32,428 nt of DNA from contig KI543169.1 in the NCBI GenBank assembly GCA_000496175.1, positions 230,391 to 262,818 of the forward strand. The letters run 5' to 3'. Shown one piece after another: positions 11,454 to 29,639 of this stretch (position 1 is its first letter; every line of letters begins with the position of its first letter). The stretch comes from an uncultured archaeon A07HR67 (lineage in GTDB: Archaea; Halobacteriota; Halobacteria; Halobacteriales; Haloferacaceae). Under the pieces are notes generated by a model that was not told the DNA's origin, made no database searches, and saw only the letters and a program-made list of their open reading frames with translations. Position numbers and translations under genes: made by a program.

Positions 11454-11493
11454 ACACGATAACAAAAACCGCAAGACGCGAGCGGGATCGTGT
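11454..11493. promoter_or_regulatory. Inverted repeat upstream of dnaK
   Basis: ACACGAT (11454-11460) and ATCGTGT (11487-11493) form 7-bp arms around an A-rich spacer, about 60-100 nt upstream of the dnaK start. This could be an operator or merely chance; no known haloarchaeal heat-shock element is recognised. Confidence 0.3.
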
Positions 11494-11522
11494 CGACGCC
11501 CGCAGCGCCCCGTCTAGTAAGC

Positions 11523-11528
11523 TTTAAC
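11523..11528 (+). promoter_or_regulatory. TATA-like box for dnaK
   Basis: TTTAAC, 28-33 nt upstream of the ATG at 11556. Confidence 0.5.
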
Positions 11529-11555
11529 CGACACAAGCCGGTATTCTATGGTAAG

Positions 11556-13580
11556 ATGGCGACAAACAAGATCCTCGGTATCGACCTCGGTACCACCAAC
11601 TCCGCGTTCGCGGTGATGGAGGGCGACGAGCCCGAGATCATCTCGAACGCGGAGGGCGACCGGACGACTCCGTCCGTCGTCGCCTTCTCCGACGACGACG
11701 AGCGGCTCGTCGGGAAGCCCGCCAAGAACCAGGCGGTACAGAACCCGGACCGGACGATCCAGTCGATCAAACGCCACATGGGCGAGGACGACTACACGGT
11801 CGCGGTCGGGGACGAGGAGTACACTCCCGAACAGATCTCGGCGATGACCCTCCAGAAGATCAAACGCGACGCCGAGGAGTACCTCGGCGACGACGTCGAG
11901 AAGGCCGTGATCACGGTCCCCGCCTACTTCAACGACAAACAACGTCAGGCGACGAAAGACGCCGGAGAGATCGCCGGCTTCGACGTCGAGCGGATCGTCA
12001 ACGAGCCGACCGCGGCGTCGATGGCGTACGGCCTCGACGACGAGTCCGACCAGACCGTCCTCGTGTACGACCTTGGCGGCGGAACGTTCGACGTGAGCGT
12101 TCTCGACCTGGGCGGCGGCGTCTACGAGGTCGTCGCCACGAACGGTGACAACGACCTCGGCGGCGACGACTGGGACGAGGCGCTCATCGACCACCTCGCC
12201 GAGGAGTTCGAAAACGACCACGGCATCGACCTCCGCGAGGACCGCCAGGCGCTCCAGCGGCTGAAAGACGCCGCCGAGGAGGCGAAGATCGAGCTGTCGA
12301 ACAAAAAGGAGACGACGGTCAACCTGCCGTTCATCACCGCGACCGACAGCGGTCCGGTCCACCTCGAGCAATCGGTCACGCGGGCGACCTTCGAGAATCT
12401 CACCGCCGACCTCCTCGACCGAACCGTCGACCCGACCGAGCAGGCGCTCGCCGACGCCGGCTACTCGACGGGCGACATCGACGAGGTGATCCTGGTCGGC
12501 GGCTCGACGCGGATGCCACAGGTTCAACAAAAGGTCGAAGACCTGGTCGGCCAGGAGCCGAAAAAGAACGTGAACCCCGACGAGGCGGTCGCGCTCGGAG
12601 CGGCGATCCAGGGCGGCGTGCTCTCGGGTGATGTCGACGACATCGTGCTGCTCGACGTGACGCCGCTCTCGCTCGGCATCGAGGTGAAAGGCGGGCTCTT
12701 CGAGCGGCTCATCGAAAAGAACACCACGATTCCGACCGAGGAGTCGAAGGTGTTCACCACGGCGGCCGACAACCAAACCTCCGTCAACGTCCGCGTCTTC
12801 CAGGGCGAACGCGAGATCGCCGAGGAGAACGAACTGCTCGGCGCGTTCCAGCTGACGGGGATCCCGCCGGCGCCCGCGGGCACGCCCCAGATCGAGGTCT
12901 CGTTCAACATCGACGAGAACGGGATCGTCAACGTCGAGGCCGAAGACCAGGGCTCTGGCAACGCCGAGTCGATCACCATCGAGGGCGGCGTCGGCCTCTC
13001 CGACGAGGAGATCGAACAGATGCAAGAAGAGGCGGAGAAACACGCCGAGGAAGACGAGGCCCGCCGCGAGCGGATCGAGGCCCGCAACGAGGCCGAGACC
13101 ACGATCCAGCGGGCCGAGACCCTGCTCGAGGAGAACGAAGAAGAGGTCGACGACGACCTCGTCGCGGACATCGAGACCGCCATCGAGGACGTCGAGGAGA
13201 CGCTGGAAGACGACGACGCCGACACCGAGGCGATCGAGTCGGTGACCGAGGCGCTCACCGACGAACTCCAGGAGATCGGCAAGCAGATGTATCAAGAACA
13301 GGCCGCACAGGCCGGTCCCGGCGGCGCCGGCGGCGCGGCGGGGCGCCGGCCCAGGCGGCATGGGCGGTGCTGGTCCCGGCGGTATGGGCGGCGCCGGCGG
13401 TCCCGATCCGGACGCCGACGACGAGGAGTACGTCGACGCCGACTTCGAAGACGTCGACGACGACGAGGAGTAACCGGCGGTCGTCGACCGCGCCTCGCCG
13501 CCGAGCACGCCGCTGACCGAACGCCACGGTCGACCCGGGCTTTTCAAGTGTCTGAGCCGGCTACAACCGACAACGAATGA
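11556..13580 (+). CDS. dnaK: Molecular chaperone DnaK (Hsp70), C-terminus frameshifted
   Basis: DnaK refolds proteins in an ATP-dependent cycle with DnaJ and GrpE. The N-terminal ATPase domain shows IDLGTTNS (9-16), DLGGGTFD (172-179) and VGGSTRMP (near 314). The interdomain linker [14 protein letters not shown] is near 362, followed by the substrate-binding domain and a helical acidic lid. A loop present in Escherichia coli DnaK is absent near residue 75, as in Gram-positive-type DnaK, in line with a bacterial origin. As sequenced, the frame after about residue 595 becomes an 80-residue Arg-rich tail ending at 13580, untypical of any DnaK. The expected Gly/Met-rich, acidic ending sits in the +1 frame and stops at 13473 (see next entry). 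Removing one G from 13340-13343 gives 638 residues. dnaJ follows; grpE is not in the window. Confidence 0.93.
13342..13473 (+). other. Displaced DnaK C-terminal tail in the +1 frame
   Basis: Read from 13342, this stretch gives a run beginning [17 protein letters not shown] and ending in [12 protein letters not shown] before TAA at 13471-13473. That is the normal low-complexity acidic end of haloarchaeal DnaK. It is out of frame with the body of dnaK by one base, with the extra base lying in the GGGG run at 13340-13343. Confidence 0.85.
13541..13546 (+). promoter_or_regulatory. Possible TATA-like box for dnaJ
   Basis: TTTTCA lies 31-36 nt upstream of the dnaJ ATG at 13577, implying a leader of a few nucleotides. 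dnaJ may also be read through from dnaK. Confidence 0.35.
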
Positions 13581-15940: not shown

Positions 15941-17305
15941 TCACTCGTCGGCCGACACGCGCCGACCGCCCGCCCCTTCGCCGTCGTCGCTCGTCCGGTC
16001 GGGCTCGTGGAGCAGACACGCCGACTCGTGACCCGAGCCGTGTTCGATCCGTTCTGGCGCGGTCTCCTCACAGGGAGTGGTGAACGCCTCGGAGAAGGTG
16101 TCGGCGGCCGCCTCGAACTCGCCGTTCACGATCTGGTCTAACCCCCGACTGAGCGTTCGCTCTGCCGTCTCGGACGCGACCTCGGACGGGATGTCGAAGT
16201 CCGCTCGGATCCGCGCTTTCACCGCGGCGTCGGTGACGTCCGTCTCCGAGTCGGCGGCCAACCGCTCGCGAATCCCGGCGACGTCGACCGCCCCGGACTC
16301 GGCGGTCGCACGCAGGTTCAACAGCCCGCGCCAGGCGGACTGATCGATGTCGAGTTCCGCCGGCTGGATCACCCGATGACAACGCGTGTGGAACCGACAG
16401 CCGCTCGGCGGGTCCGACGGACTCGGAACTGTCCCCTCCAGTTCGATCCCACCGGGGCTCGCCCGCGGGTCCGGCGTCGGGATCGACGACAACAACGCCT
16501 CCGTGTACGGGTGCTTCGGGTCGCTGAACACCCGCGACACCGGGCCGATCTCGACGATCTCGCCGAGATACATCACTGCGACCCGGTCACACACCTCACG
16601 AATGACCGACATGTCGTGGCTGATCAACAACAACGACAGGTCGAACGCCGACTGGAGCTCGTCGAGCAGCCCGAGAATCTCGGCTTTGATCGAGACGTCG
16701 AGCGCCGAGACGGGCTCGTCGGCGATCACGAGATCGGGGTTCAGTACCAGCGCTCTCGCCAGGGCGATCCGTTGTTTCTGTCCGCCGGAGAACTCGTGAG
16801 GGTACCGGTCGGCGTCGGACGCAGAGAGCCCGACACGGTCGAGCAAGTCCTCGACGATCGCCCGTCGTCGGTCGCGGTCGTCCATCCCCTGAACCCGTAA
16901 CGGCTCGGCGATCGCGTCACCGATCGTCATCCGGGGGTCGAAACTTGACGACGGGTCCTGAAACACCATCTGGACTCCGCGACGGAACGCTTCGAGTTCG
17001 CGGTCGTCGAACCGCGTGACGTCGTTCGGGTGCGTTCCATCCGCGTTCCGTGTCGCTCCTCCCCGACCGTTTCCGTTGAAGATCACCTCGCCGCCGGTCG
17101 GCTCCTCCAGCCGAACGATCGAGCTTGCGGCCGTCGACTTGCCGCAACCGGACTCGCCGACGAGCCCCAGCGTTTCGCCGCGTTCGACCTCGAAGCTGAT
17201 CCCGTCGACGGCGCGGGTCACCCCGACCTGCCGTCTGAACAACCCCTCCGTTATCGGGTAGTGTTTCTCCAGGTCGCGAACGCTCATCAACGGCTCTTCA
17301 CTCAT
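15941..17305 (-). CDS. Peptide ABC transporter ATP-binding protein, OppF/DppF type
   Basis: This 454-residue ATPase powers solute import with the OppD-type partner. Seen are Walker A GESGCGKST (50-58), the Q-loop in VFQDPSSSFDP (114-123), the ABC signature FSGGQKQR (172-179), Walker B VIADEP (193-198) and the H-loop SHD (229-231). The opp-family C-terminal motif GCRFHTRC (302-309) is present, but the second pair of cysteines (Cys412, Cys430) is about 100 residues further on, not about 10-30 as in the partner. The insertion (about 312-410) is helical and acidic. Four such cysteines are reported to hold an iron-sulfur cluster in some Opp/Dpp ATPases. It is last in the operon, overlapping the oppD stop by 8 nt. 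Confidence 0.92.
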   Translation of the reverse strand: MSEEPLMSVRDLEKHYPITEGLFRRQVGVTRAVDGISFEVERGETLGLVGESGCGKSTAASSIVRLEEPTGGEVIFNGNGRGGATRNADGTHPNDVTRFDDRELEAFRRGVQMVFQDPSSSFDPRMTIGDAIAEPLRVQGMDDRDRRRAIVEDLLDRVGLSASDADRYPHEFSGGQKQRIALARALVLNPDLVIADEPVSALDVSIKAEILGLLDELQSAFDLSLLLISHDMSVIREVCDRVAVMYLGEIVEIGPVSRVFSDPKHPYTEALLSSIPTPDPRASPGGIELEGTVPSPSDPPSGCRFHTRCHRVIQPAELDIDQSAWRGLLNLRATAESGAVDVAGIRERLAADSETDVTDAAVKARIRADFDIPSEVASETAERTLSRGLDQIVNGEFEAAADTFSEAFTTPCEETAPERIEHGSGHESACLLHEPDRTSDDGEGAGGRRVSADE

Positions 17306-18350
17306 CCTCGGGACTCACCCCGCCGGCCGCCGGTTGCTCCTCGCGTGAACCGTCCCGAAGAACCGACCGGTCCATATCGCTGCGGTAGTGGACACAGGAG
17401 GCGTGTTGTCCCGGATTCACGGCGTGTTCTGCCGGCTGGCCGCCGGTACGACACGCCTCGACAGCGTGTGAACACCGAGGGGCGAACCGACACCCAGCCG
17501 GCGGGTCGTGTGGATCCGGCAGGGTTCCGGGAATCCCTCCCTTGCGACTCCCGCCCACCTCCGGGATACACTCCAACAACCGTCGGGTGTACGGGTGAGC
17601 CGGGCGTTCGAAGATGTCGAGCACGTCTCCCCGTTCCATCACCTTGCCCGCGTACATCACCACGATCCGGTCGGCGATCTGTGCCACCACCCCGAGGTCG
17701 TGTGTGACGAAGAGCACTCCCATGTCGAACTCCGACTGGAGCTCGTCGAGCAGCGATAGAATCTGTGCCTGGACCGTGACGTCGAGCGCCGTCGTCGGCT
17801 CGTCGGCGATGAGCAGGTCCGGGTCGCCGACGAGCGCCATCGCGATCATGGCGCGTTGTTTCTGCCCGCCGGAAAGCTGGTGGGGGTACTCCTCGAACCG
17901 CGCGCTCGGATTCGCGATTCCGACTCGGTCGAGAAGGTCTATCGCTCGCCCGCGAGCCTCCGCGTCGGGAACGTCCTCGTGGATCTGAAGCGCCTCTACG
18001 ATCTGCCACCCGACGGTGTAACAGTGGTTCATCGCCTCCTGTGGGTTCTGAAACACGTGTGCGATGTCGTACCCACGGATCGTTCTGAGCTCCGGCTCCG
18101 GCATCTCGAGGAGGTCACGCCCTCGATACCGCACCGAGCCCTCGATGCGGCCCGGCGGCGAACCGATGAGCCGCGTGATCGATTCCGTCGCGACGGTCTT
18201 TCCCGACCCCGACTCGCCGACGAGACAGACCGTCTCGCCCGCCTCGACGGTGAAGTCGATCCCGTCGACCGCGACGAGCTCTCCCTCGTCGGTGTCGAAC
18301 GCCGTCGTGAGCCCCTCGACCGCCAGAAGCGGCGACGCGTCGTCGGTCAT
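17298..18350 (-). CDS. Peptide ABC transporter ATP-binding protein, OppD/DppD type
   Basis: This 350-residue ATPase is the second motor subunit of the importer. Motifs are Walker A GESGSGKT (45-52), the Q-loop HVFQNPQEAMNH, signature LSGGQKQR, Walker B LLIADEPTTALD and H-loop THD. The C-terminal cluster GCRFAPRCSHAVEAC plus a final Cys in HASCVHY has the normal compact spacing, in contrast to OppF. The start at 18350 (MTDDASPLL) gives a 4-nt ATGA overlap with the upstream permease gene; the open frame runs to 18461, but the extra residues are an out-of-frame reading of oppC. Confidence 0.93.
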   Translation of the reverse strand: MTDDASPLLAVEGLTTAFDTDEGELVAVDGIDFTVEAGETVCLVGESGSGKTVATESITRLIGSPPGRIEGSVRYRGRDLLEMPEPELRTIRGYDIAHVFQNPQEAMNHCYTVGWQIVEALQIHEDVPDAEARGRAIDLLDRVGIANPSARFEEYPHQLSGGQKQRAMIAMALVGDPDLLIADEPTTALDVTVQAQILSLLDELQSEFDMGVLFVTHDLGVVAQIADRIVVMYAGKVMERGDVLDIFERPAHPYTRRLLECIPEVGGSRKGGIPGTLPDPHDPPAGCRFAPRCSHAVEACRTGGQPAEHAVNPGQHASCVHYRSDMDRSVLRDGSREEQPAAGGVSPEDE

Positions 18351-19531
18351 TCGTTCTCCGCCTCCGCTTCCGGGTTCAACGCGTCCAACAACGCGTCGCC
18401 GAGGAAGTTGAACGCCAGAATGGTGAGAAACAACACGACCCCCGGCGCGAGAACGATCCACGGCGCAAACGAGAGGTCACTCCGGCCGGCGGAGATGAGC
18501 TGCCCCCACGAGGGGACCGCCGAGTCGCCCAGCCCGAGAAACGCGAGCTGTGCCTCCGCGAGGAGAAAGCCCGGAACGAGAAGCGTGAGCTGCGTGATGA
18601 TGCTACTCGCCGTGTTCGGCACGACGTGGCGTCTCACGACCTGAGCGGTGGTCGCGCCGGTGAGCCGGCCCGCCTTGACGTACTCGGCCTCCGAGACGGA
18701 CAACGACTTGCTCCGGACGTAGCGGGCGGTGCCGCCCCAGGCGAAAAGCGAGAAGACGAGAATGAACATGCCAAGTCCCGCCCCGTAGATGTACAGGATG
18801 AGAAGAAACATCAGAAGCGTCGGAAACGAGAGCACGACGTCGACGAACCGCATCAGGGTCTCGTCGACCCAGCCGCCCGCGTACGCGCTCACCGTCCCGA
18901 CCGAGACGCCGATCGCCGCGACGATGGTCGTCGTGATGAACGCGATCTGCATGCTGATCGTCATGCCGTAGACGATGCTCGCGAAGACGTCTTTTCCGCC
19001 TTGGGTGGTTCCGAGCGGGTGTTGGAGGGTTCCCTGACACCGCCCGCCGACGACGTCGCCGACACACGTCGCCACGTTTGCGGCGTCGATGGAGAGAAAG
19101 ACCGGCGGCTGGTGGCCGGTGAGAACGCTCTGTTCGGGCGCACTCACCACGAGCGGGCCGAAGAGTCCGCCGACGAAGACGACGCCGAGCCATCCCAGGC
19201 TGACGACCGCCGGGCGGTTGCGCTTGAACTGCCGCCAGTAGTACCGCGTCATGCGAGGGTTCTGGTACAACGGCGCGACCACGTAGAAGGCGAACAACAC
19301 CAGCGTGAACCCAAAGAGGTAATCGATCCCCTCGAGGTTCCACTCCGTTCCGAGAAACGCGAACGTCGCCGTTCGTTCCCCGAGCACCTGCCAGTCGTAG
19401 ATCCCGAGCAGGGCGAGCGGCAGCGTACAGAACACGACGCCCAGCGTGTTTTTCGACGGCTCGAACCACCGCGACTGCGATATCTCGTCCCACTCTACCT
19501 CGTCGAACCGGTCAGATCGTTGCGTTCCCAT
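18347..19531 (-). CDS. Peptide ABC transporter permease, OppC/DppC type, N-terminally extended
   Basis: This 394-residue permease has the conserved core: a first core helix (about 108-128), a large extracytoplasmic loop, five further helices and the cytoplasmic EAA loop (EAEYVKAGRLTGATTAQVV, 281-299) that contacts the ATPases. It is about 90 residues longer than usual. The extension carries two additional hydrophobic segments (about 29-46 and 70-87) before the usual YYWRQFKRNRPAVVSLGW start. The extracytoplasmic loop contains Cys156 and Cys165, which could form a disulfide. It is transcribed between oppB (6-nt gap) and oppD (4-nt overlap). Confidence 0.9.
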   Translation of the reverse strand: MGTQRSDRFDEVEWDEISQSRWFEPSKNTLGVVFCTLPLALLGIYDWQVLGERTATFAFLGTEWNLEGIDYLFGFTLVLFAFYVVAPLYQNPRMTRYYWRQFKRNRPAVVSLGWLGVVFVGGLFGPLVVSAPEQSVLTGHQPPVFLSIDAANVATCVGDVVGGRCQGTLQHPLGTTQGGKDVFASIVYGMTISMQIAFITTTIVAAIGVSVGTVSAYAGGWVDETLMRFVDVVLSFPTLLMFLLILYIYGAGLGMFILVFSLFAWGGTARYVRSKSLSVSEAEYVKAGRLTGATTAQVVRRHVVPNTASSIITQLTLLVPGFLLAEAQLAFLGLGDSAVPSWGQLISAGRSDLSFAPWIVLAPGVVLFLTILAFNFLGDALLDALNPEAEAENE

Positions 19532-19537
19532 CTGTGT

Positions 19538-20512
19538 TCACCTGTCGTCGTAGCTGATCCGCGGGTCCAACACGGTGAACACGAGGTCCTCGATGAGGTT
19601 CCCCACCACGGCGACGAAGGTGAACGCCAGCGTCGACCCCAACACGAGGTTCGTGTCCTGTGCGATGAGCGCGTTGTACGTCACGCGTCCGAGCCCCGGA
19701 ATGCCGAACACCACCTCCACGAGCAACGACGACCCGAGGAACAACGCCAACAGCTGTCCGACGAGCGTCGTCGACAACGGCACCAGCGTCGGACGCATGA
19801 CGTGATAGGCGTACGCGCGAAGCGGCGAGACGCCCTTCGCCTTCGCTGTCTTCATGAAGTCGGCGTGTTGGAACTCGGCGGACTCGTTGCGCGACACCCG
19901 CATGACGGCGCCGATCGATCCCGTGACCAACACGAAGACGGGGATCGACAGCTGGATCGCGTTCGCGAGGCTGAACACCGGCACGCTCGTGTCGTAGACG
20001 ACCGGAATCACCTCGAGCCAGACCCCGAACATCAACAACAGGATGATCCCGAAAAAGAAGTTGGGGATGGCGTATCCGAAGAACGCGAACCCGGTCGCGA
20101 GATGGTCCTTCCAGCTGTACATGTTCGCGGCCGAGTACACGCCCACGAGCGGCCCGAGCAGGATCGTCAGGATCGTCCACGGCACGGAGTACTGGGCGGT
20201 GTAGTACAACCCTTCGGCCAGCGCCGTCGTCACGGGCTGGCTCCGGCTGTCGGCCCAGCCCCAGTCGAGCGTGTAGATGCTCTGGAGGTAATCCATGTAC
20301 CGCACGTGAATCGGCTCGTCGAGCCCCCGGAGTTCGCGGGCACGTTCGGCCGCCTCGGCCGGATCGCCGCCCTGAAGCGCCGCCTGCGTCGCCGCCCGCT
20401 GGATCTCTGGGTTCGGAGCGGCTGCGAGGAGCAGAAACGTGATCGTGACGATGATCAACGAGACGACCGCGGCCCACATCACGCGAGCGGTGACGTACGT
20501 TCCGAATCCCAT
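19538..20512 (-). CDS. Peptide ABC transporter permease, OppB/DppB type
   Basis: This 324-residue permease has a first helix at about 10-30 (RVMWAAVVSLIIVTITFLLL), a long external loop containing LRGLDEPIHVRYMDYLQSIYTLDWGW, as is typical of OppB, five further helices, and the EAA loop around ADFMKTAKAKGVSPLRAYAY. It ends with the family sequence NLIEDLVFTVLDPRISY. It forms the membrane channel with OppC. It sits 36 nt after the binding-protein gene and 6 nt before oppC, so it is in the same operon. Confidence 0.93.
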   Translation of the reverse strand: MGFGTYVTARVMWAAVVSLIIVTITFLLLAAAPNPEIQRAATQAALQGGDPAEAAERARELRGLDEPIHVRYMDYLQSIYTLDWGWADSRSQPVTTALAEGLYYTAQYSVPWTILTILLGPLVGVYSAANMYSWKDHLATGFAFFGYAIPNFFFGIILLLMFGVWLEVIPVVYDTSVPVFSLANAIQLSIPVFVLVTGSIGAVMRVSRNESAEFQHADFMKTAKAKGVSPLRAYAYHVMRPTLVPLSTTLVGQLLALFLGSSLLVEVVFGIPGLGRVTYNALIAQDTNLVLGSTLAFTFVAVVGNLIEDLVFTVLDPRISYDDR

Positions 20513-20548
20513 GTGGTCTGTGTTGGTTTGATGATCGGTGAGCCGTGG

Positions 20549-22423
20549 CTACTCTTCGCCTGGATAAAACTCCGACCAGCGGGGCTGCCAGGTGAAGTGC
20601 GCGTCGGCGAGCCCTCGGTAAACCCCCTGAATGAGGTCGTCTTTGCCGATCGCCGCCGCCAGCGCCTGGCGGAACGCCGTGATCTGGAACAGGTTTCCCG
20701 GCCCGGTTTGCCACCCGTTGGCGCGCTGATTCACCGAGAGAATACGGTTGTACGGGGTGGGTATCTCACGGACGGTCACGTCTTCGTTCTCCTCGTACGA
20801 TTGGAACTGTTCGGGCGGAATGCCTGCTGCGTCCGCTTCTCCGGTTTCGAGCGCTCCGAGCCGCGACGCCTGTTCTTCCACGACGCTGATCGACGCCTCC
20901 TCGAAGAACGGCCCGTCGGCGAACCGGTCCGGCCCCTCGTCGACCTCCTGGAGATAGTACTCGTCGTTGCGGGTGTACGTCGTTCCGGCGCCGCGGTTCC
21001 ACTCGTCGAGCGTGAAGGCTCCGAGGTTTCCGGTGAACGATAACTCGAGCAGCTCCTGGTCCTGTTGTAATCCCTCGACGTCTTCGGACTCGACGTACGG
21101 CTCGAGGAGGTCACGCGGGATCGGGTACAACAACGGGTCGTACGACTGCGGCCACAACAACGCCGGCGTGTCCAGCGTCGCCTGAAAGGTGAACTCGCCG
21201 GTCTGTTCGACCTCGACGCCCTCCCAACTCGACGCGGAGACGGTGTTCGCCCAGTCGCTCTGGTGGATCTCCTGAACGAGGTAGACGAAGTCCGCCGCGG
21301 TGACCTGTCCGTACGGATCGCTGAACGTGAGGTTCTCCCGGAGTTCGAACGTCCAGACCTCCCCGTTCTCCGTGGACATGTCGTACAACAACGGGAAGTA
21401 CTCCTGATCGTCGTCGAAGGTGTACCCTTGGTCGAGAACGCGACCGATCGCCGTTCCGGCGCCCGCCTCCGTGTTGTACAACGGGTTCAGCGTCGAGAAC
21501 CCGGCCGCGCTGACCGTGTCGTACGAGCCGGAGACGGTCGGATCGCCGGCGTACCACGCCGGGAAGTCCCAGCCGTTCGAGAAGTTCTCGCTCGGCCCGT
21601 TCAGCTCCGGATTGTAGCCGACGAGGTCGTCGCCGAGAACGAGCATGACGTACGGCTGCTCGCGGGCGAGATTCTCGAATATCTCGACGAACGCCTCGCG
21701 GAGCTCGTCCCGGCTCGTCGCCTGGCGTGCCGTCTCGAAGAGACCCGTCGCGTCGAACTCGGGATAGTAGCCGACGGGGTTGTACACCGTGTTCGCGCCG
21801 TCGAAGAACACCTCGTTCGTGAGCGGGTTGAGCGGGTACGTGTTCAGCCCGAACACGACTGACATGTCCCACGCCTCGTTGCTCGTCACCGACTGCGGAC
21901 CGGGGTTCTGTGGCGTCGGCTGCGCCCACTCGACCTCCTCGCCGTTGACCGTGTCGGTGCCGCCTGCCGGCTCGGCGGTCCAGTACTCGTTGTTGAACCG
22001 AGTGCCGTCGATCGCCTCGACCGAGACGACGATGCCGAGGTTTTCCTGGAGCTCTTGGCCGATGTACTCGGCCACGAGTTGGGAGGTCTCCTGTCCGGCC
22101 GAGTGGTAGATGTCGAGTTCGACCTGGTCGCCTTCCGGCGTCACCATGTCGCCGCCGTCGAAGCCGTAGTCGTGGTCCGATTCTTCGAAGGCTCTCCGGG
22201 CGAGGGTGCGCGCGACCGTCTCGCCGTACAGGTCGTCGACGCCGAACCGCGGGAACGCCCCGATTGTGACGTCGTCGCCCTCGCTGTCTGCGGTGCCTTC
22301 CTCGTTTTCCTCTCCTGAGCAGCCGGCGAGCGCCGAGAGGCCGGTGACTCCGAGCGCGGAGAGCCACCGTCGCCGGCTGACTCGTCGGCTGGTTTCACTC
22401 CCTGCCGTGGGCCGCCGTGACAT
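20549..22423 (-). CDS. Tat lipoprotein substrate-binding protein with swapped SBP_bac_5 halves
   Basis: This 624-residue protein begins with a twin-arginine signal (SRRRWLSALG) and lipobox ALAGC with Cys35, so it is a membrane-anchored extracellular receptor for the OppBCDF importer. Family 5 binding proteins normally run from an N-terminal half (STLNPL-type opening, VWTFELRENLTFSD, TLDEWNRG-type lobe, AFRQALAAAI) to a C-terminal half (domain closure, DELREAFVEIFENLAREQPYV). Here the C-terminal half comes first (about 55-290) and the N-terminal half second (about 298-624), ending just after the usual midpoint at FYPGEE. This suggests a circular permutation, with the old termini joined near residues 285-300 (about 21530-21570). 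The open frame is intact, with a promoter and a normal start. The ligand is probably a peptide or similar solute. Confidence 0.88.
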   Translation of the reverse strand: MSRRPTAGSETSRRVSRRRWLSALGVTGLSALAGCSGEENEEGTADSEGDDVTIGAFPRFGVDDLYGETVARTLARRAFEESDHDYGFDGGDMVTPEGDQVELDIYHSAGQETSQLVAEYIGQELQENLGIVVSVEAIDGTRFNNEYWTAEPAGGTDTVNGEEVEWAQPTPQNPGPQSVTSNEAWDMSVVFGLNTYPLNPLTNEVFFDGANTVYNPVGYYPEFDATGLFETARQATSRDELREAFVEIFENLAREQPYVMLVLGDDLVGYNPELNGPSENFSNGWDFPAWYAGDPTVSGSYDTVSAAGFSTLNPLYNTEAGAGTAIGRVLDQGYTFDDDQEYFPLLYDMSTENGEVWTFELRENLTFSDPYGQVTAADFVYLVQEIHQSDWANTVSASSWEGVEVEQTGEFTFQATLDTPALLWPQSYDPLLYPIPRDLLEPYVESEDVEGLQQDQELLELSFTGNLGAFTLDEWNRGAGTTYTRNDEYYLQEVDEGPDRFADGPFFEEASISVVEEQASRLGALETGEADAAGIPPEQFQSYEENEDVTVREIPTPYNRILSVNQRANGWQTGPGNLFQITAFRQALAAAIGKDDLIQGVYRGLADAHFTWQPRWSEFYPGEE

Positions 22424-22446
22424 AGTGGGTACCAGCCGGTCAACGC

Positions 22447-22453
22447 ATATAAA
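22447..22453 (-). promoter_or_regulatory. TATA box of the ABC transporter operon
   Basis: TTTATAT on the minus strand, 24-30 nt upstream of the ATG at 22423, is the only clear promoter of the five-gene operon. Confidence 0.6.
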
Positions 22454-22522
22454 CTCTCGTTGCGCTGCGGGCGCCGTGACCACGCCGCTCGTGTCGAGTC
22501 GGCTCCAAGGGATCCGGAACTC

Positions 22523-23057: not shown

Positions 23058-24352
23058 TCAGCCCACCACGCGGTCGACGACGCCCGCGACCGTCACGGCC
23101 GCGGCCTCGACTTCGCGGACCCGGACGTACTCCCGTTCCGCGTGTGCCACCGCGCCGGCGTCGTCCGCGAGGTCTCCCGGGCCGAAGACGACCGTCGGGG
23201 TCGGCGCGAAGTACGACGCCTCCGTCGCGGCGCCGAACGGACGGACCGCGCCGCCGCGGCCGCTCGCCAGTCCCGCGGCGTCTGTCGCCGTCCGCGCCGC
23301 GCCGGCTACCGCCGAGACGAACTCGTGGTCCGGGTCGGTCGAGAACGCCTCGAAGAACGGCGATTCTCGCTCGGTCAGCGTCATCTCGACGCCGACGGGC
23401 GCGTCGGTCGCCTCCCGAACGGCGGCCGCAAGAGCCCGTTGAAACCCCTCTGCGGTCTCGGGGGGAACGCTCCGGCGGTCGACCGTCACCGCACACTCGG
23501 CCGGCACCTGGTTCGTCGCGGCACCCCCTCGATGACGGTCGGCGTGAGCTTCGGCGGGCCCAGCTGTGGGTGGTCGCGGGCGTCCTCGTCGAACCGGCGG
23601 ATCGCAGCGAGTGCGTCCTCCGCGGCGGCGACGGCGTTTACGCCCGCGAACTCGGCGGCGTGTGCCGCCCGCCCCGAGAGCTCGACGCGCCCCTGAAACC
23701 GCCCCTTCGCCGCCGTACACGCGTCGAGCCCGGTGGGCTCGCCGACGAGATACAGGTCGCCGGCCAGGCGGTCCTCGGATCCGGGGAGAGTTCCGGCCAG
23801 CGCCGCCGCTCCGAGCGAGAGGGTCTCCTCGTCCGGGGTCACCGCCAGCGTGAGCCGTCCCCGCTCCGGCTCTGCTGTGAGAAACCCGTGTATCAACGCC
23901 GCCAGGGGTCCCTTGGCGTCACACGCGCCTCGGCCGCGGATCACGTCGGTCTCAGACGATCCCTCTGTCTCCTCAGGGTCGTCCGGACCGTCCGTTTCGC
24001 CGGCCTCCGCGCCCGTTTCGCCGGCCTCCGCGCCCGTCGCCGCCCGATCCCGTTCGAACGGGACGTGTGGCGTCACCGTGTCGAGGTGGGTGTTCATCAC
24101 GAGGTGTGGCCCCGCCTCGGGAGCCGCCGAGACCCTCTCGGCGACCACACAGCCCGCCTCGTCGACAGTGACGTCGACGTCGCTCCCGAGCCGTTCGAGC
24201 GTGTCCACGACCAGCCGCCGCATCCTTTCGACCCCGTCGTGAGACGGCGTCTGAACGGCGTCCGCGAGGAACGCGACCGGATCGAAGGCGGTCGACGCCG
24301 CTTCCGGGGCTGGGACGTGCGGCCCGTCCGTCTCGTCGCGGTCGGCAGTCAT
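23058..24352 (-). pseudogene. dapE: M20 peptidase, probable succinyl-diaminopimelate desuccinylase, frameshifted
   Basis: DapE removes succinate from N-succinyl-LL-diaminopimelate. The 5' part shows M20 metal motifs: NTHLDTV (first His and Asp), GRGACDAKGPLAAL (bridging Asp), PDEETLS (catalytic Glu), GEPTG and the dimerisation-domain GRAAHAAE. After Glu275 the frame changes: the expected continuation GGAATNQVPAECAVTVDRRS lies one base away and runs to the stop at 23058, including the last metal ligand His (GAVAHAEREYV). One G is missing from the coding-strand G run (plus-strand C5 at 23524-23528). As written the protein stops at 23486 after 288 residues, whereas the corrected gene has 431. 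It overlaps dapF by 4 nt. The DapE assignment rests on operon context; LysK/ArgE-type deacylases are the alternative. Confidence 0.85.
23994..24035. repeat. Two perfect 21-bp tandem repeats within dapE
   Basis: Units 23994-24014 and 24015-24035 are identical and encode seven residues twice (GAEAGET on the minus strand) in a surface linker before the GRGACD motif. This in-frame duplication probably arose by slippage and should be harmless. Confidence 0.9.
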
Positions 24353-25236
24353 CGCGGATCCGGCGTCACCCGCCTCGTGAACTCTCGGGCGACCGGGCCG
24401 GTGAGCGTCGCGTAGTCGTCGTCCGGGACCGCGATCCGCAACTCGCCGCCGGGCGGTCGGGTCACCGCCGTGTCGCTGTCGATCAGCCCGAGTCGGCGGG
24501 CGGCGGCGACGATCGCGACCGCGCCCGTGCCACACGACCGCGTTTCTCCCTCGACGCCGCGCTCGAACGTCCGCTGGTCGACGACCGCCGGCCGGTCGTT
24601 CTCCGGGTCGCCGCGGTCGACGACCGCCGCCAGGTTCACGTTCGCCCCCCGGGGAAAGACGCCGGCGGCTCTGACCGGCGGCGCGACGGCCGCCAGGTCG
24701 ACGTCGCCGGGGTCGTCGTCGAGAAACGCCACGGCGTGTGGCACGCCGGTGTCGACGGCGGTGACGGTGAGCCCCTCGACCGGCTCTGCGACGAGCGGCT
24801 CCTCGCGGTCGAGCGGAACCGCCGCCGGGTCGAACCGCGGCGTCCCCATCTCGATGGTGACCTCGCTCCCGTCGAGGCTCACGCTCGCCCGGCGGGTGCC
24901 CGCCTGCGTGTCGATCATGAACTCGTGTTCGTCGGTTCGCTCGTGTGCCCACCGGGCGACGACGCGCGCGCCGTTGCCACACATCGCGGCCGTCGAGCCG
25001 TCGGGTTGTACCAGCGTCATCACGACGCGGGTCGGGTGACACCGTTCCTCGATGCTCAAAAAGAGGACGCCGTCCGCCCCGCGGCGACCGGCGTCGTCGC
25101 CGACGACGCCCGTCTCGCGGTCGCAGTGTGCCCGCGCGAAGGCGGCCCTGTCGCCGACTCCCTCGGCGGCGTCGACCACGAGAAAGTCGTTGCCGGTGCC
25201 GTGGTACCGTCGTACCGGAACGGCGTGTGCGCTCAT
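24349..25236 (-). CDS. dapF: Diaminopimelate epimerase
   Basis: This 295-residue pyridoxal-independent epimerase converts LL- to meso-diaminopimelate. Its two catalytic cysteines are visible: Cys86 in MCGNGARV and Cys235 in SCGTGAVA. The substrate loop YHGTGNDF is at 11-18, and FPRGANVNLA marks the start of the second half. Length and symmetry are normal. The ATG at 25236 overlaps the lysA stop by 4 nt, and the dapE start overlaps the stop of this gene by 4 nt, indicating tight coupling in the cluster. Confidence 0.96.
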   Translation of the reverse strand: MSAHAVPVRRYHGTGNDFLVVDAAEGVGDRAAFARAHCDRETGVVGDDAGRRGADGVLFLSIEERCHPTRVVMTLVQPDGSTAAMCGNGARVVARWAHERTDEHEFMIDTQAGTRRASVSLDGSEVTIEMGTPRFDPAAVPLDREEPLVAEPVEGLTVTAVDTGVPHAVAFLDDDPGDVDLAAVAPPVRAAGVFPRGANVNLAAVVDRGDPENDRPAVVDQRTFERGVEGETRSCGTGAVAIVAAARRLGLIDSDTAVTRPPGGELRIAVPDDDYATLTGPVAREFTRRVTPDPR

Positions 25237-26594
25237 CGGCTCACCCCGCCGGCGTCACCGTCGATCGGCGCTGGACCGCCGTCGCCGTCCCGGCTCGGTT
25301 CGGCTTCCCGCTCGACCCGCGTGAGGTCCGCCAGACGCTCGCGCCGGCGCACGACCGTCGCGTCCCCGTTCAGCGCGACCTCGGCGGGCCGCGGCCGCGA
25401 GTTGTACTGGCTCGCCATCTCGTACCCGTACGCGCCCGCGATGCCGACGGCGAGGAGGTCGCCGCGGACCGGCCGCGCGAGCGGGCGGGTCCGACAGAAC
25501 GTATCGCCGGTCTCACAGATGGGTCCCGCGACCGTGACCGGCGTCGACTCCCGGTCGGCGGGGTCCGGTTCGTTGTTCGCCCCGCCGATGTTCCGGATCG
25601 GGTGATACGCGTCGTACATCGCCGGCCGCAACAGGTCCGTCATCCCGGCGTCGACGCCGACGACCGTCTCGTCGGGCGTCGGTTTCACCGTGTTCACCCG
25701 GGTCAGGAGTACGCCGGCATCGGCGACGACGTACCGCCCGGGCTCGACCGCGAGCGCGACACCCGGAACCTCGCCGAGCGCGTCTCGGGTGGCGTCTGCG
25801 ACCGCGTCCAACTCGAGCGGGGCGTCGTCCTCGCGGTACGGCACGCCGAACCCCCCGCCGACGTCGACGTACTCGAGATTGAGGGGATCGGGCGAGGCGT
25901 CGGGGTCGCCTGCGGCCGCTTCCGGCTCCGTCAGTTCTCGTGCGAGCGCGCCCATCCGCGAGACCAGTTCCCGGTGGCTGTCGAGCCCGTCCGCGTCGAT
26001 TCCCGACCCGGCGTGGGCGTGGATCCCGACCAGGTCGAACCGGTCTACGGCGTCGCGGGCGACCCGCACGGCCCGGTCGTGCGGCACGCCGAACTTCGCG
26101 GCCGCGCCGGTTCGGACCTTCTCGTGGTGGCCCGCGCCGACGCCGGGGTTCACCCGGAGACACAGCCGGCCGTCGTAGCCGCGGTCGGCGAGGCGGTCGA
26201 GCGTGTCGACCGCGCCCGCGGTGACGGTCAGCCCGTCCGTCGACGCGGCGGCATCGACGACGTACTCGAGGTCTCGCGCCGGCGGGTTCACCGCGGTGTA
26301 GTGGAGCCGGTCGCCGCCGAACCCCGCCGCGAGCGCGCGGTCGACCTCGCCGGCCGAGGCGCACTCGGCGTCCAGCCCGGCCGCGTGGACGGTCTCCAAC
26401 ACCGCACGACCGCTGTGTGCCTTCATGGCGTATCGTACGTCGGCGTCGGGAAACGCCGCCGTCAACCGCTCGCAGTTCTCGCGCACGCGTTCGAGGTCTT
26501 GGACGTACAGCGGCGTGTCGTGGGCGTTCGCGAGCGTCCGGAGCCGGTCTCGGTCCCACTCGCTCACCCGCCGAACCGATTGCTCGTCGGTCAT
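25233..26594 (-). CDS. lysA: Diaminopimelate decarboxylase
   Basis: This 453-residue PLP enzyme decarboxylates meso-diaminopimelate to lysine, the last step of the pathway. It is a fold-type III barrel with the Schiff-base lysine in RYAMKAH (Lys58), VGIHAHAGSGID, a phosphate-binding EPGRYVVADAG, and the active-site GPICETGDTF that supplies Cys and Glu across the dimer. The tail after PFDLTR-type sequence is Arg/Asp-rich and ends in an acidic stretch typical of halophiles. It overlaps dapD and dapF by 4 nt at either end. Confidence 0.95.
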   Translation of the reverse strand: MTDEQSVRRVSEWDRDRLRTLANAHDTPLYVQDLERVRENCERLTAAFPDADVRYAMKAHSGRAVLETVHAAGLDAECASAGEVDRALAAGFGGDRLHYTAVNPPARDLEYVVDAAASTDGLTVTAGAVDTLDRLADRGYDGRLCLRVNPGVGAGHHEKVRTGAAAKFGVPHDRAVRVARDAVDRFDLVGIHAHAGSGIDADGLDSHRELVSRMGALARELTEPEAAAGDPDASPDPLNLEYVDVGGGFGVPYREDDAPLELDAVADATRDALGEVPGVALAVEPGRYVVADAGVLLTRVNTVKPTPDETVVGVDAGMTDLLRPAMYDAYHPIRNIGGANNEPDPADRESTPVTVAGPICETGDTFCRTRPLARPVRGDLLAVGIAGAYGYEMASQYNSRPRPAEVALNGDATVVRRRERLADLTRVEREAEPSRDGDGGPAPIDGDAGGVSR

Positions 26595-27430
26595 TCGCGG
26601 AGCGTGTCCTCCCGTCGGGTGGCCTCGATCGTCTCGCGCTCGACCTCGGTGGCGACGACCGCGGGCTTGTACGCGCCGCCCTCGAAGAGGTCGTGGTCGC
26701 CCACCGACGATTCCACCATCCGCGTGAACGCCCGACGCTCGGCCGGGAGGTGGCCGTAGAACACCGTCTCCTCGACGAGGTCGTAGACGGGGATCCGCGG
26801 GGTGAGAAGCGTGTTCTCGCCGACGATCGAGTTCGCGCCGACGCGGAACCCGGACGTGACCCGACAGCCGGCGCCCAGAGACGCGCCCGGTTCGATTACG
26901 ACGGGGGCGTCCTCGACCGGCTCCAACACGCCGCCGATCAGGGTGTTCGCGCCGAGTTTCACGCCCGCGCCGATCTGCGCACAGGAGCCGACGGTGTCAC
27001 AGGAGTCGACGAGCGCGCCGTCGCCGACGTACGCGCCCATGTTGACGAACGAGGGGCTCATCATGATACAATCGCTCCCGAGGTGTGCCCCACGGCGAAT
27101 CACGGTTCCGTCGGGAGTGTTTCGCGTGCCCCGCTCGGCGAGGTCGGCGGTTTCCTGCAGGGACACCACGTCGTAGTAGGTGACGCCGCCGTACTCGTGG
27201 GGCTCCGTCGCCCGCAGTCCGAAGTTGAGCAGGACCCCCTGTTTCACCCACTCGTTCGCCTCCCAGGTCGTCACGTCGGCGCCGGTCTTCTCGGCGGCGC
27301 GGACCTCGCCGGCCTCCAGCGCCGCGAGAAACGCGTCGAGGACGGCCTCGTCGTCGGCGGTCGTCCCGTCGGCCGAGAGCCCCGCCTCGTACCGCCGCCA
27401 GAGATCGGACACGTCGGATTCGAGCGTCAT
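26591..27430 (-). CDS. dapD: Tetrahydrodipicolinate N-succinyltransferase
   Basis: This 279-residue left-handed beta-helix acyltransferase transfers succinyl from succinyl-CoA to tetrahydrodipicolinate. Hexapeptide repeats are visible from about 110 to 215 (GTVIRRGAHLGSDCIMMSPS, NMGAYVGDGALVDSCDTVGS, GAGVKLGANTLIGGVLEP, GASLGAGCRVTSGFRVGANS). The helical N-terminus ends with NFGLRATEPHEYGG. Its presence shows that this organism uses the succinylase branch. It follows dapB after a 57-nt gap carrying a TAAATA box, so a second promoter probably exists here. Confidence 0.95.
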   Translation of the reverse strand: MTLESDVSDLWRRYEAGLSADGTTADDEAVLDAFLAALEAGEVRAAEKTGADVTTWEANEWVKQGVLLNFGLRATEPHEYGGVTYYDVVSLQETADLAERGTRNTPDGTVIRRGAHLGSDCIMMSPSFVNMGAYVGDGALVDSCDTVGSCAQIGAGVKLGANTLIGGVLEPVEDAPVVIEPGASLGAGCRVTSGFRVGANSIVGENTLLTPRIPVYDLVEETVFYGHLPAERRAFTRMVESSVGDHDLFEGGAYKPAVVATEVERETIEATRREDTLRE

Positions 27431-27487: not shown

Positions 27488-28300
27488 TCACTCATTCGGG
27501 GCCTCTCGTTCACCGCCGAGAACGTCGTCGAACGCGTACCAGCCGGGGTCGCGGCCGGCCAGCCAGGCCGCGGCGTCGAGTGCTCCCTCCGCGAACACGC
27601 CGCGGTCGCCCGCGCGGTGGGTGACGGAGAGCACCTCGCGGTTGCCCGCGAGCAACACCTCGTGTTCGCCGGTCACGTCGCCGGCGCGCCGGGCGTGAAC
27701 GCCGACCTCGTCGGGCGAACGCGGCGCATCGCCCTCGCGGCCGTGGACCCGACGGTCGAGATCGCCGCGGACCGACTCGACGTCTCCGAGGATGGTCTGT
27801 GCCGTCCCCGACGGGGCGTCGCGTTTTCCGTTGTGGTGGGTCTCGGTCAACTCCACGTCGTACCCCGGGACCGCCGCGACGGCCGCGCGGACCGCCCGGC
27901 GGAGCGCGGCGACCCCGCGGGCGAAGTTCGACGCTTTCAGTATGGGCACCGTCTCGCTCGCCGCCCGGAGACGGTCCGTCTCCTCGGGATCGAAGCCGGT
28001 CGTGCCCGTGACGACGGCGACGTCGGCCGCCGCGGCGGCCGTCGCGTACTCGACCGCCGACGCCGGCCCGGTGAAATCGACGAGCACGTCGGGATCGGTC
28101 GCCGCGAGCAGGTCCTCGAGGCGGTCTGCGGCCGCGATGTCGACGCCCGCGACCGGGTCAGTCGGCGTCCGATTCACTGCGGTCGCGACCGCGACCTCGT
28201 CTCGGGTCGCCGCCGCCTCGATCACCTCGGTGCCCATCCGCCCGCCCCCGCCGGTGACGGCGATCCGAACTGGGTCGGCCGCGCCGTCGGTTCCCGTCAT
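27488..28300 (-). CDS. dapB: 4-Hydroxy-tetrahydrodipicolinate reductase
   Basis: This 270-residue NAD(P)H-dependent reductase acts on the DapA product. The nucleotide-binding glycine loop is GGGGRMG (17-23), and DFTGPASA and TGTTGF are the usual central blocks. The signature ETHHNGKRDAPSGTA (153-167) contains the catalytic His155/His156 and Lys159. Although the open frame extends to 28567, the ATG at 28300 gives the family-typical length and a 4-nt overlap with dapA. Confidence 0.96.
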   Translation of the reverse strand: MTGTDGAADPVRIAVTGGGGRMGTEVIEAAATRDEVAVATAVNRTPTDPVAGVDIAAADRLEDLLAATDPDVLVDFTGPASAVEYATAAAAADVAVVTGTTGFDPEETDRLRAASETVPILKASNFARGVAALRRAVRAAVAAVPGYDVELTETHHNGKRDAPSGTAQTILGDVESVRGDLDRRVHGREGDAPRSPDEVGVHARRAGDVTGEHEVLLAGNREVLSVTHRAGDRGVFAEGALDAAAWLAGRDPGWYAFDDVLGGEREAPNE

Positions 28301-29280
28301 TCGACCGCCTCCGCCGGCTCGACCGGCTCCGGCGTCTCGGCTTCGTACTCCGCGAGGAGGTCGCGGAGCGACTCGCGGCGGTCGGCCGAGAGCCGGGTGA
28401 GCGGCGACCGAACGTGCGGGCCGCCCCGCCCGCGGACGTGCATCGCCTCCGTGACCGGAATCGGGTTCGTCTCGGCGAACAACGCCCGAACCAGCGGCGA
28501 GAGCTCGTGGTGAAGCCGGCGAGCGCGCTCGTAATCGCCCGAGAGCGCCGCGCCGACCATCGCACACGACCGTTCCGGCTCGACGTTCGCGACGACGCTT
28601 ATCGTGCCTGTGCCCCCGACGGACACCGTCGGGAGCGTGAGTCCGTCGTCGCCGGAAAGCACGGAGAACGTCTCCTCGCGGGTCCGCTCGACCACCTCGC
28701 TGATCCGGCCGAGATCGCCGGACGCGGCCTTGTATCCCTGGATGTTGGGGTGTGCGGCGAGTTCGACGACGACGTCGACGGGGATCGACCGGCCCGTTCG
28801 CGACGGGACGTTGTACACGATCTGCGGCAGGTCGACGGCGTCTGCGACCGCGCGGTAGTGGTCAAGAAACCCCTCGGGCTCCGGTCTGTTGTAGTACGGC
28901 GAGATGAGCAACAACCCGTCCGCGCCGGCGTCGGCGGCCCGCCGAGACAACGAGAGCGCCTCGGCGGTGTTGTTCGATCCCGTCCCCGCGATGACGGGAA
29001 CGTCGTCGACGGCGTCGCGAACCGTCTCGACGACCTCGACGTGCTCGTCGTGGGTCATGGTGGCCGACTCGCCGGTGGAGCCGGCCGGGACCACCCCGTC
29101 GACGCCCGCCCGCTCGAGAACCCGAGCGTTCTCGGCGAGCTGTGCGTGGTCGATCTCGTTCTCGTCGGTGAACGGCGTCGTCATCGCGGGGTAGACGCCC
29201 TCGAACGGCTCGTCGGTCGGTTCGCGGTCGATGCTCTCGTGGTCGGTCGTGTACGGCGTCGTTGTCGTGGCGTTCGTCAT
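28297..29280 (-). CDS. dapA: 4-Hydroxy-tetrahydrodipicolinate synthase
   Basis: This 327-residue TIM-barrel aldolase condenses pyruvate with aspartate semialdehyde, the first committed step to lysine. The Schiff-base lysine is Lys184 in QGYKAASGD. Tyr156 is in VYNVPSRTG, and the proton-relay Ser68/Thr69 are in GSTGES. Residues 1-25 (Thr/Asp/Glu-rich) precede the usual FEGVYPAMTTPF opening and are an extension; the next Met (33) lies too far into the fold. No TATA box is near the start; the likely promoter is at 29473-29478, giving a leader of about 170 nt. Confidence 0.95.
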   Translation of the reverse strand: MTNATTTTPYTTDHESIDREPTDEPFEGVYPAMTTPFTDENEIDHAQLAENARVLERAGVDGVVPAGSTGESATMTHDEHVEVVETVRDAVDDVPVIAGTGSNNTAEALSLSRRAADAGADGLLLISPYYNRPEPEGFLDHYRAVADAVDLPQIVYNVPSRTGRSIPVDVVVELAAHPNIQGYKAASGDLGRISEVVERTREETFSVLSGDDGLTLPTVSVGGTGTISVVANVEPERSCAMVGAALSGDYERARRLHHELSPLVRALFAETNPIPVTEAMHVRGRGGPHVRSPLTRLSADRRESLRDLLAEYEAETPEPVEPAEAVE

Positions 29281-29478: not shown

Positions 29479-29639
29479 CGTTGTGTCTCGGCGGAACGCG
29501 GGTCCGTCGCGACCCCGTCCCGCTGCCGGGACTCGGCCTCCTGTCGAGGCCGACCTCACCGTCTGGCGGACGACCCCGGCGTGGCCGCTCGGGGACCTCG
29601 ACTCGCGACCGTGAGCGGCCACGAACCGGACGCCACACG

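Follow-up and report, generated by a model that had tools for sequence, protein, structure and literature searches.

A one-base frame break in the dapE gene of a haloarchaeal draft genome is very probably a consensus error

Introduction

When the dapE gene of a haloarchaeon is deposited in two reading frames, has the organism lost a step of lysine synthesis, or has the record lost a base? Lysine synthesis in haloarchaea follows the diaminopimelate route, and in Natrinema gari, mutation of dapD or dapB leads to lysine auxotrophy, the arginine pathway provides no replacement, and Ask, Asd, and DapE are only 15.3 to 21.7% identical to the corresponding proteins of that pathway (PMC10433800). For Haloferax volcanii, a further source describes the dapE assignment as supported by gene clustering (PMC8305020).

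The window analyzed here, by which we mean the whole stretch of 32,428 nucleotides (C16:230391–262818), belongs to a genome of the Halorubrum group that comprises 2.89 Mb in 16 contigs and is 82% complete. We infer that the dapE break is very probably a one-base consensus error, missing from the DNA of the organism itself. The case is mainly of cautionary value: a literal reading of the record would predict a lysine-requiring haloarchaeon in which the tail of DnaK is damaged, and automatic pathway reconstruction would be misled by this genome and by at least one other, G022, which carries similar breaks.

Results and Discussion

A single dapE gene in two frames

The minus-strand dapE frame opens with an ATG at 24352 and closes at the stop at 23486 (Table 1). 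Residues 1–275 of this first ORF are DapE-like and end in ...GPPKLTPTVIE, after which 13 unrelated residues of the shifted frame lead to the stop. The DapE sequence is taken up again in the adjacent frame as AATNQVPAECAVTVDRRS... and runs on through 154 residues until the stop at 23058; the residues flanking the break are ...LTPTVIE before and ...ATNQVPAECAVTVDR after, and the adjacent-frame continuation after ...LTPTVIE reads AATNQVPAECAVTVDRRSV... Frameshift-aware protein-to-DNA alignment placed the break at 23528 with all three reference proteins.

The two ORFs complement each other along a single NCBIfam model, NF006402 (succinyl-diaminopimelate desuccinylase, 369 positions), which is matched over its whole length, but in two frames. 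By this family match, the product would be a desuccinylase. Neither half reaches the curated cut-off of 369 bits when scored apart, so that the gene as deposited is a broken DapE gene. It resembles haloarchaeal DapE in that both halves fit the model end to end and in that the gene order with dapF and lysA is that of the relatives; it differs in being split across two frames by one base. The first-pass annotation had located a frame break after Glu275 with about 155 residues intact in the adjacent frame, and its coordinates, residue number, and estimate of length all agree with these results. It had also assigned a late histidine to the other frame, where it is indeed encoded, in the motif VAHAERE; in this family, the residue would be the last metal ligand. 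In a PDB search, the first half matched distant M20 proteins and the second half had no hits, and a promoter and terminator scan found nothing.

Table 1. Coordinates of the dapE parts, the neighboring lysine genes, and dnaK in the window.
Feature	Coordinates	Strand	Evidence and remarks
dnaK ORF	11490..13580	+	Tail misframed after about 13344 (G4 run); 3/3 references
dapE, second part, adjacent frame	23058..23541	-	NF006402 positions 221-368, 204 bits; no internal stop
C5 at the frame break	23524..23528		Lost base here or in adjoining Gly-Gly codons; 3/3 references, codons of 76 relatives
dapE, first part	23486..24352	-	288-aa ORF; NF006402 positions 2-226, 316.4 bits
dapF, intact	24349..25236	-	TIGR00652, 181.6 bits (cut-off 114.65)
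lysA, intact	25233..26594	-	TIGR01048, 338.7 bits (cut-off 297.9)
dapD, intact	26591..27430	-	NF008808, 261.3 bits (cut-off 204)
dapB, intact	27488..28567 (ORF as listed)	-	TIGR00036, 202.6 bits (cut-off 122)
dapA, intact	28297..29280	-	TIGR00674, 319.4 bits (cut-off 206.15)

The lysine gene cluster

The dapE gene is the last of a dapA-dapB-dapD-lysA-dapF-dapE cluster in which the five genes upstream all score above their model cut-offs (Table 1), and dapF shares 4 bases with the start of dapE. For dapB, the alignment with relatives begins near 28291, inside the listed ORF. These five genes align unshifted to proteins of other species, with the sole exception of one of the three references for dapA, in which the shift sits upstream of the dapA start. 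A candidate shift near 29620, in plus-strand ORFs opposite dapA and beyond, appeared with two of three references, failed the strict filter described below, and is not claimed. An oligopeptide/dipeptide ABC transporter cluster adjoins dapE at about 15988–22483.

dapE in related genomes

A scan of genome contigs yielded 76 named dapE loci in relatives, the best at 71–73% identity, and the matches to the first half all end at residue 276. Both halves lie in one frame in all 76 named relatives, and the break is therefore more than chance. Within the genus, 49 of 52 genomes, the window's own genome being counted, contain a match above the NF006402 cut-off. The three others are the window's own genome, G022, where the match falls into two pieces, and G040, which gives no match and is 84% complete. 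In G045, the match is shortened because N runs lie inside its dapE.

G022, of the same genus, is like the window in that its dapE is split mid-gene in two frames at CCCCC, and unlike it in that the split occurs at another site of dapE and dapF is broken too. This genome consists of a single contig and is listed with a completeness of 99%; the shifts in its dapF and dapE (L121, 8477 and 9423) both fall at CCCCC, and strict shifts were counted in 5 of 36 aligned genes, one of them doubtful.

Absence of decay

Apart from its one break, the gene bears none of the signs of a decaying pseudogene that were looked for in dapE, namely further stops or indels and relaxed constraint. Against 12 relatives, pN/pS (Nei–Gojobori) is 0.29–0.43 for the first half and 0.23–0.33 for the second, like the values obtained when an intact relative (L001) is compared with 11 others (0.24–0.37 and 0.20–0.37, respectively). 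GC3 amounts to 0.85 for the first half, compared with 0.88 for the second, and both halves are free of internal stops. The first-pass view that decay is minimal is thus borne out. It had further supposed that, were the lesion biological, lysine synthesis would depend on another deacylase; this part finds no support, since constraint across the cluster is normal and a consensus error would explain everything observed. A very recent true mutation would likewise leave no decay, a point that counts against an error.

Which base was lost

In the relatives, the break site corresponds to two glycine codons. Among the 76 named loci, the first of these is GGC in 61, GGG in 8, and GGT in 7, and the second is GGC in 59, GGG in 8, GGT in 5, and GGA in 4. 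An uninterrupted run at this site is thus the exception among relatives, and a longer run is not general there. The second codon of the window is GGT, and in all three Halorubrum-like relatives (at least 64% identity) that share a GGT at this position, it is preceded by GGG. Judged from these codons, a shortening of the run (C5 from C6) is possible; loss of an interrupting base would give an identical G5. Hence, of the earlier statement that C5 should read C6, the C5 at the break stands, and C6 is not established.

Frameshifts and assembly quality

The draft is gappy: N runs are frequent in the 20 stretches of 20 kb that were sampled, and many consist of exactly 20 N, a gap length that may be typical of certain assemblers. 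To the left of the window itself lie 575 N and to its right 20 N, so that it represents one gapless contig of the scaffold. Proteins of other species were aligned in a frameshift-aware manner with the window and the sampled stretches (101 genes, 101 kb), and alignments below 50% identity or shorter than 80 residues, as well as events close to N runs, were left out of the counts. Several simpler procedures were set aside. A reference-free frame Viterbi produced an excess of false calls at ordinary gene overlaps and was used merely to suggest places, simple tblastn splitting was disturbed by antisense ORFs and was replaced by the filtered alignment, and with no filter or with a first one, shifts turned up in all genomes, often close to misplaced gene starts, so that the stricter filter is quoted here.

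Five strict shifts were found in the 101 aligned genes: those in dapE and dnaK, and three in other parts of the same genome (L111 3027, L112 14221, and L117 9610). The last three lie near C4, C4, and G3 runs, respectively. Within the 18 bases surrounding the shift, four of the five have a G/C run of 4 or longer, compared with 9.1% of positions (P 0.0003, an approximate value because gap placement has some freedom). The suspicion about data quality voiced in the first-pass annotation is upheld by these shifts and by the gappy state of the draft, as is its call of a second indel in dnaK. All three references place the dnaK shift at about 13344, near GGGG in the Gly-rich tail and in the sense opposite to that of dapE; the conserved acidic tail is encoded in a different frame, and the uncorrected ORF continues into dnaJ. 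An ORF antisense to dnaK (11514–13547, minus strand) matches Pfam PF10712 (NAD-GH, 5e-142), presumably a spurious antisense family of Hsp70 genes.

The rate of shifts is by itself only suggestive. It amounts to 5 in 101 kb versus 14 in 477 kb when all eleven other genomes are treated alike (P 0.23), control events being kept in the counts even where they seem to reflect misplaced starts or antisense ORFs (G045 12829 and 12942; G022 10447). A comparison with 2 in 359 kb gives P 0.007, but its six genomes were chosen after the counts had been seen. As evidence, we give more weight to the homopolymer context and to the occurrence of two breaks in one contig than to the rate. G/C runs of 5 number 94 per 100 kb here versus 127–166 in six other groups; base composition differs between the groups, and no inference is therefore built on the lower count.

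Explanations of the break

The reading that we favor, and consider very probable, is that the deposited consensus dropped one base in a G/C-rich stretch of an ordinary working dapE; the living cell would then have an unbroken gene and would make lysine in the usual way. In its favor are the two halves that continue each other, the unbroken relatives, the lack of decay, the gappy draft, the dnaK shift, and the homopolymer context. The break resembles homology-confirmed singleton consensus indels in that it involves one base, a G/C run, and one species, with homology on both sides and no other decay, and, as in other drafts with consensus indels, further cases occur in the same assembly. A survey of prokaryotic frame transitions expects most of those that occur only once and have homology support to be sequencing errors (PMC3711429). 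Unlike in typical homopolymer consensus indels, the relatives suggest that the base lost from dapE need not have lain in the run; that a longer run is not general among them, and that the shift rate does not significantly exceed that of the eleven other genomes, we count against an error.

We think it unlikely that the deletion is real and fresh, carried by a wild Halorubrum population with an otherwise kept lysine cluster that copes by import, by a substitute M20 deacylase, or by slippage. The form in which imported lysine or peptides suffice after a true, very recent one-base deletion, with the diaminopimelate cluster starting to decay, appears rather more doubtful. It takes the sequence as given and can point to the oligopeptide/dipeptide transporter cluster beside dapE and to the Natrinema gari dapD and dapB auxotrophs, which grow on supplied lysine (PMC10433800). 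The transporter genes, however, also stand near dapE in relatives in which the gene is intact, neither dapE nor the other five genes show decay, and the shift of dnaK in the same contig suggests a fault of the data rather than an effect of lysine biology.

We would be surprised if dapE were truly lost and its function taken by another M20 deacylase. The first-pass annotation had proposed a search for a second M20 desuccinylase elsewhere in the genome; run on the assembly (82% complete), this search detected other M20 paralogues and no second DapE above the NF006402 cut-off. Eight other places in the genome weakly match the DapE model, the best reaching 127.4 bits against the required 369. Six of these were classified: two score above the cut-off of the broad ArgE/DapE model TIGR01910 (C14:179841 and C16:75430), one above that of a [LysW]-lysine hydrolase model, and three above no cut-off among the matches listed. 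Of the eight relatives searched, only one has a close homologue of the gene at C14:179841, which is thus not simply shared housekeeping and could suit a substitute; nothing connects any paralogue with the loss of dapE. The paralogue of [LysW]-hydrolase type, which exceeds its own cut-off, has an aminotransferase and a carbamoyltransferase-like ORF as neighbors and is thus probably an arginine enzyme. Taken together, the paralogue data neither demand nor exclude a substitute enzyme. Least probable of all, in our judgment, is that the DNA is as given and that the full protein is recovered by slippage, either of the ribosome, moving back one base at the GGG codon, or of RNA polymerase within the run. 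Judged by the sequence, stepping back one base in the G5 would yield exactly the residues conserved in the relatives. Against it, the frame change expected to be conserved in a programmed frameshift occurs in none of the 76 named relatives, and dnaK would require a shift of the opposite sense. Moreover, the run is only 5 long, compared with the runs of eight or more for which transcriptional slippage is described (PMC3711429), and runs of this length are so common in the genome, as counted above, that slippage on them would disturb many genes.

Two minor observations concern the M20 genes themselves. The deacylase at C14:179841–180803 scores 253.8 bits with TIGR01910, the cut-off being 217.6. 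Within dapE, a perfect 21-base tandem duplication (2.2 copies, 23992–24037) is in frame and gives rise to a repeated TGAEAGE in an acidic insertion.
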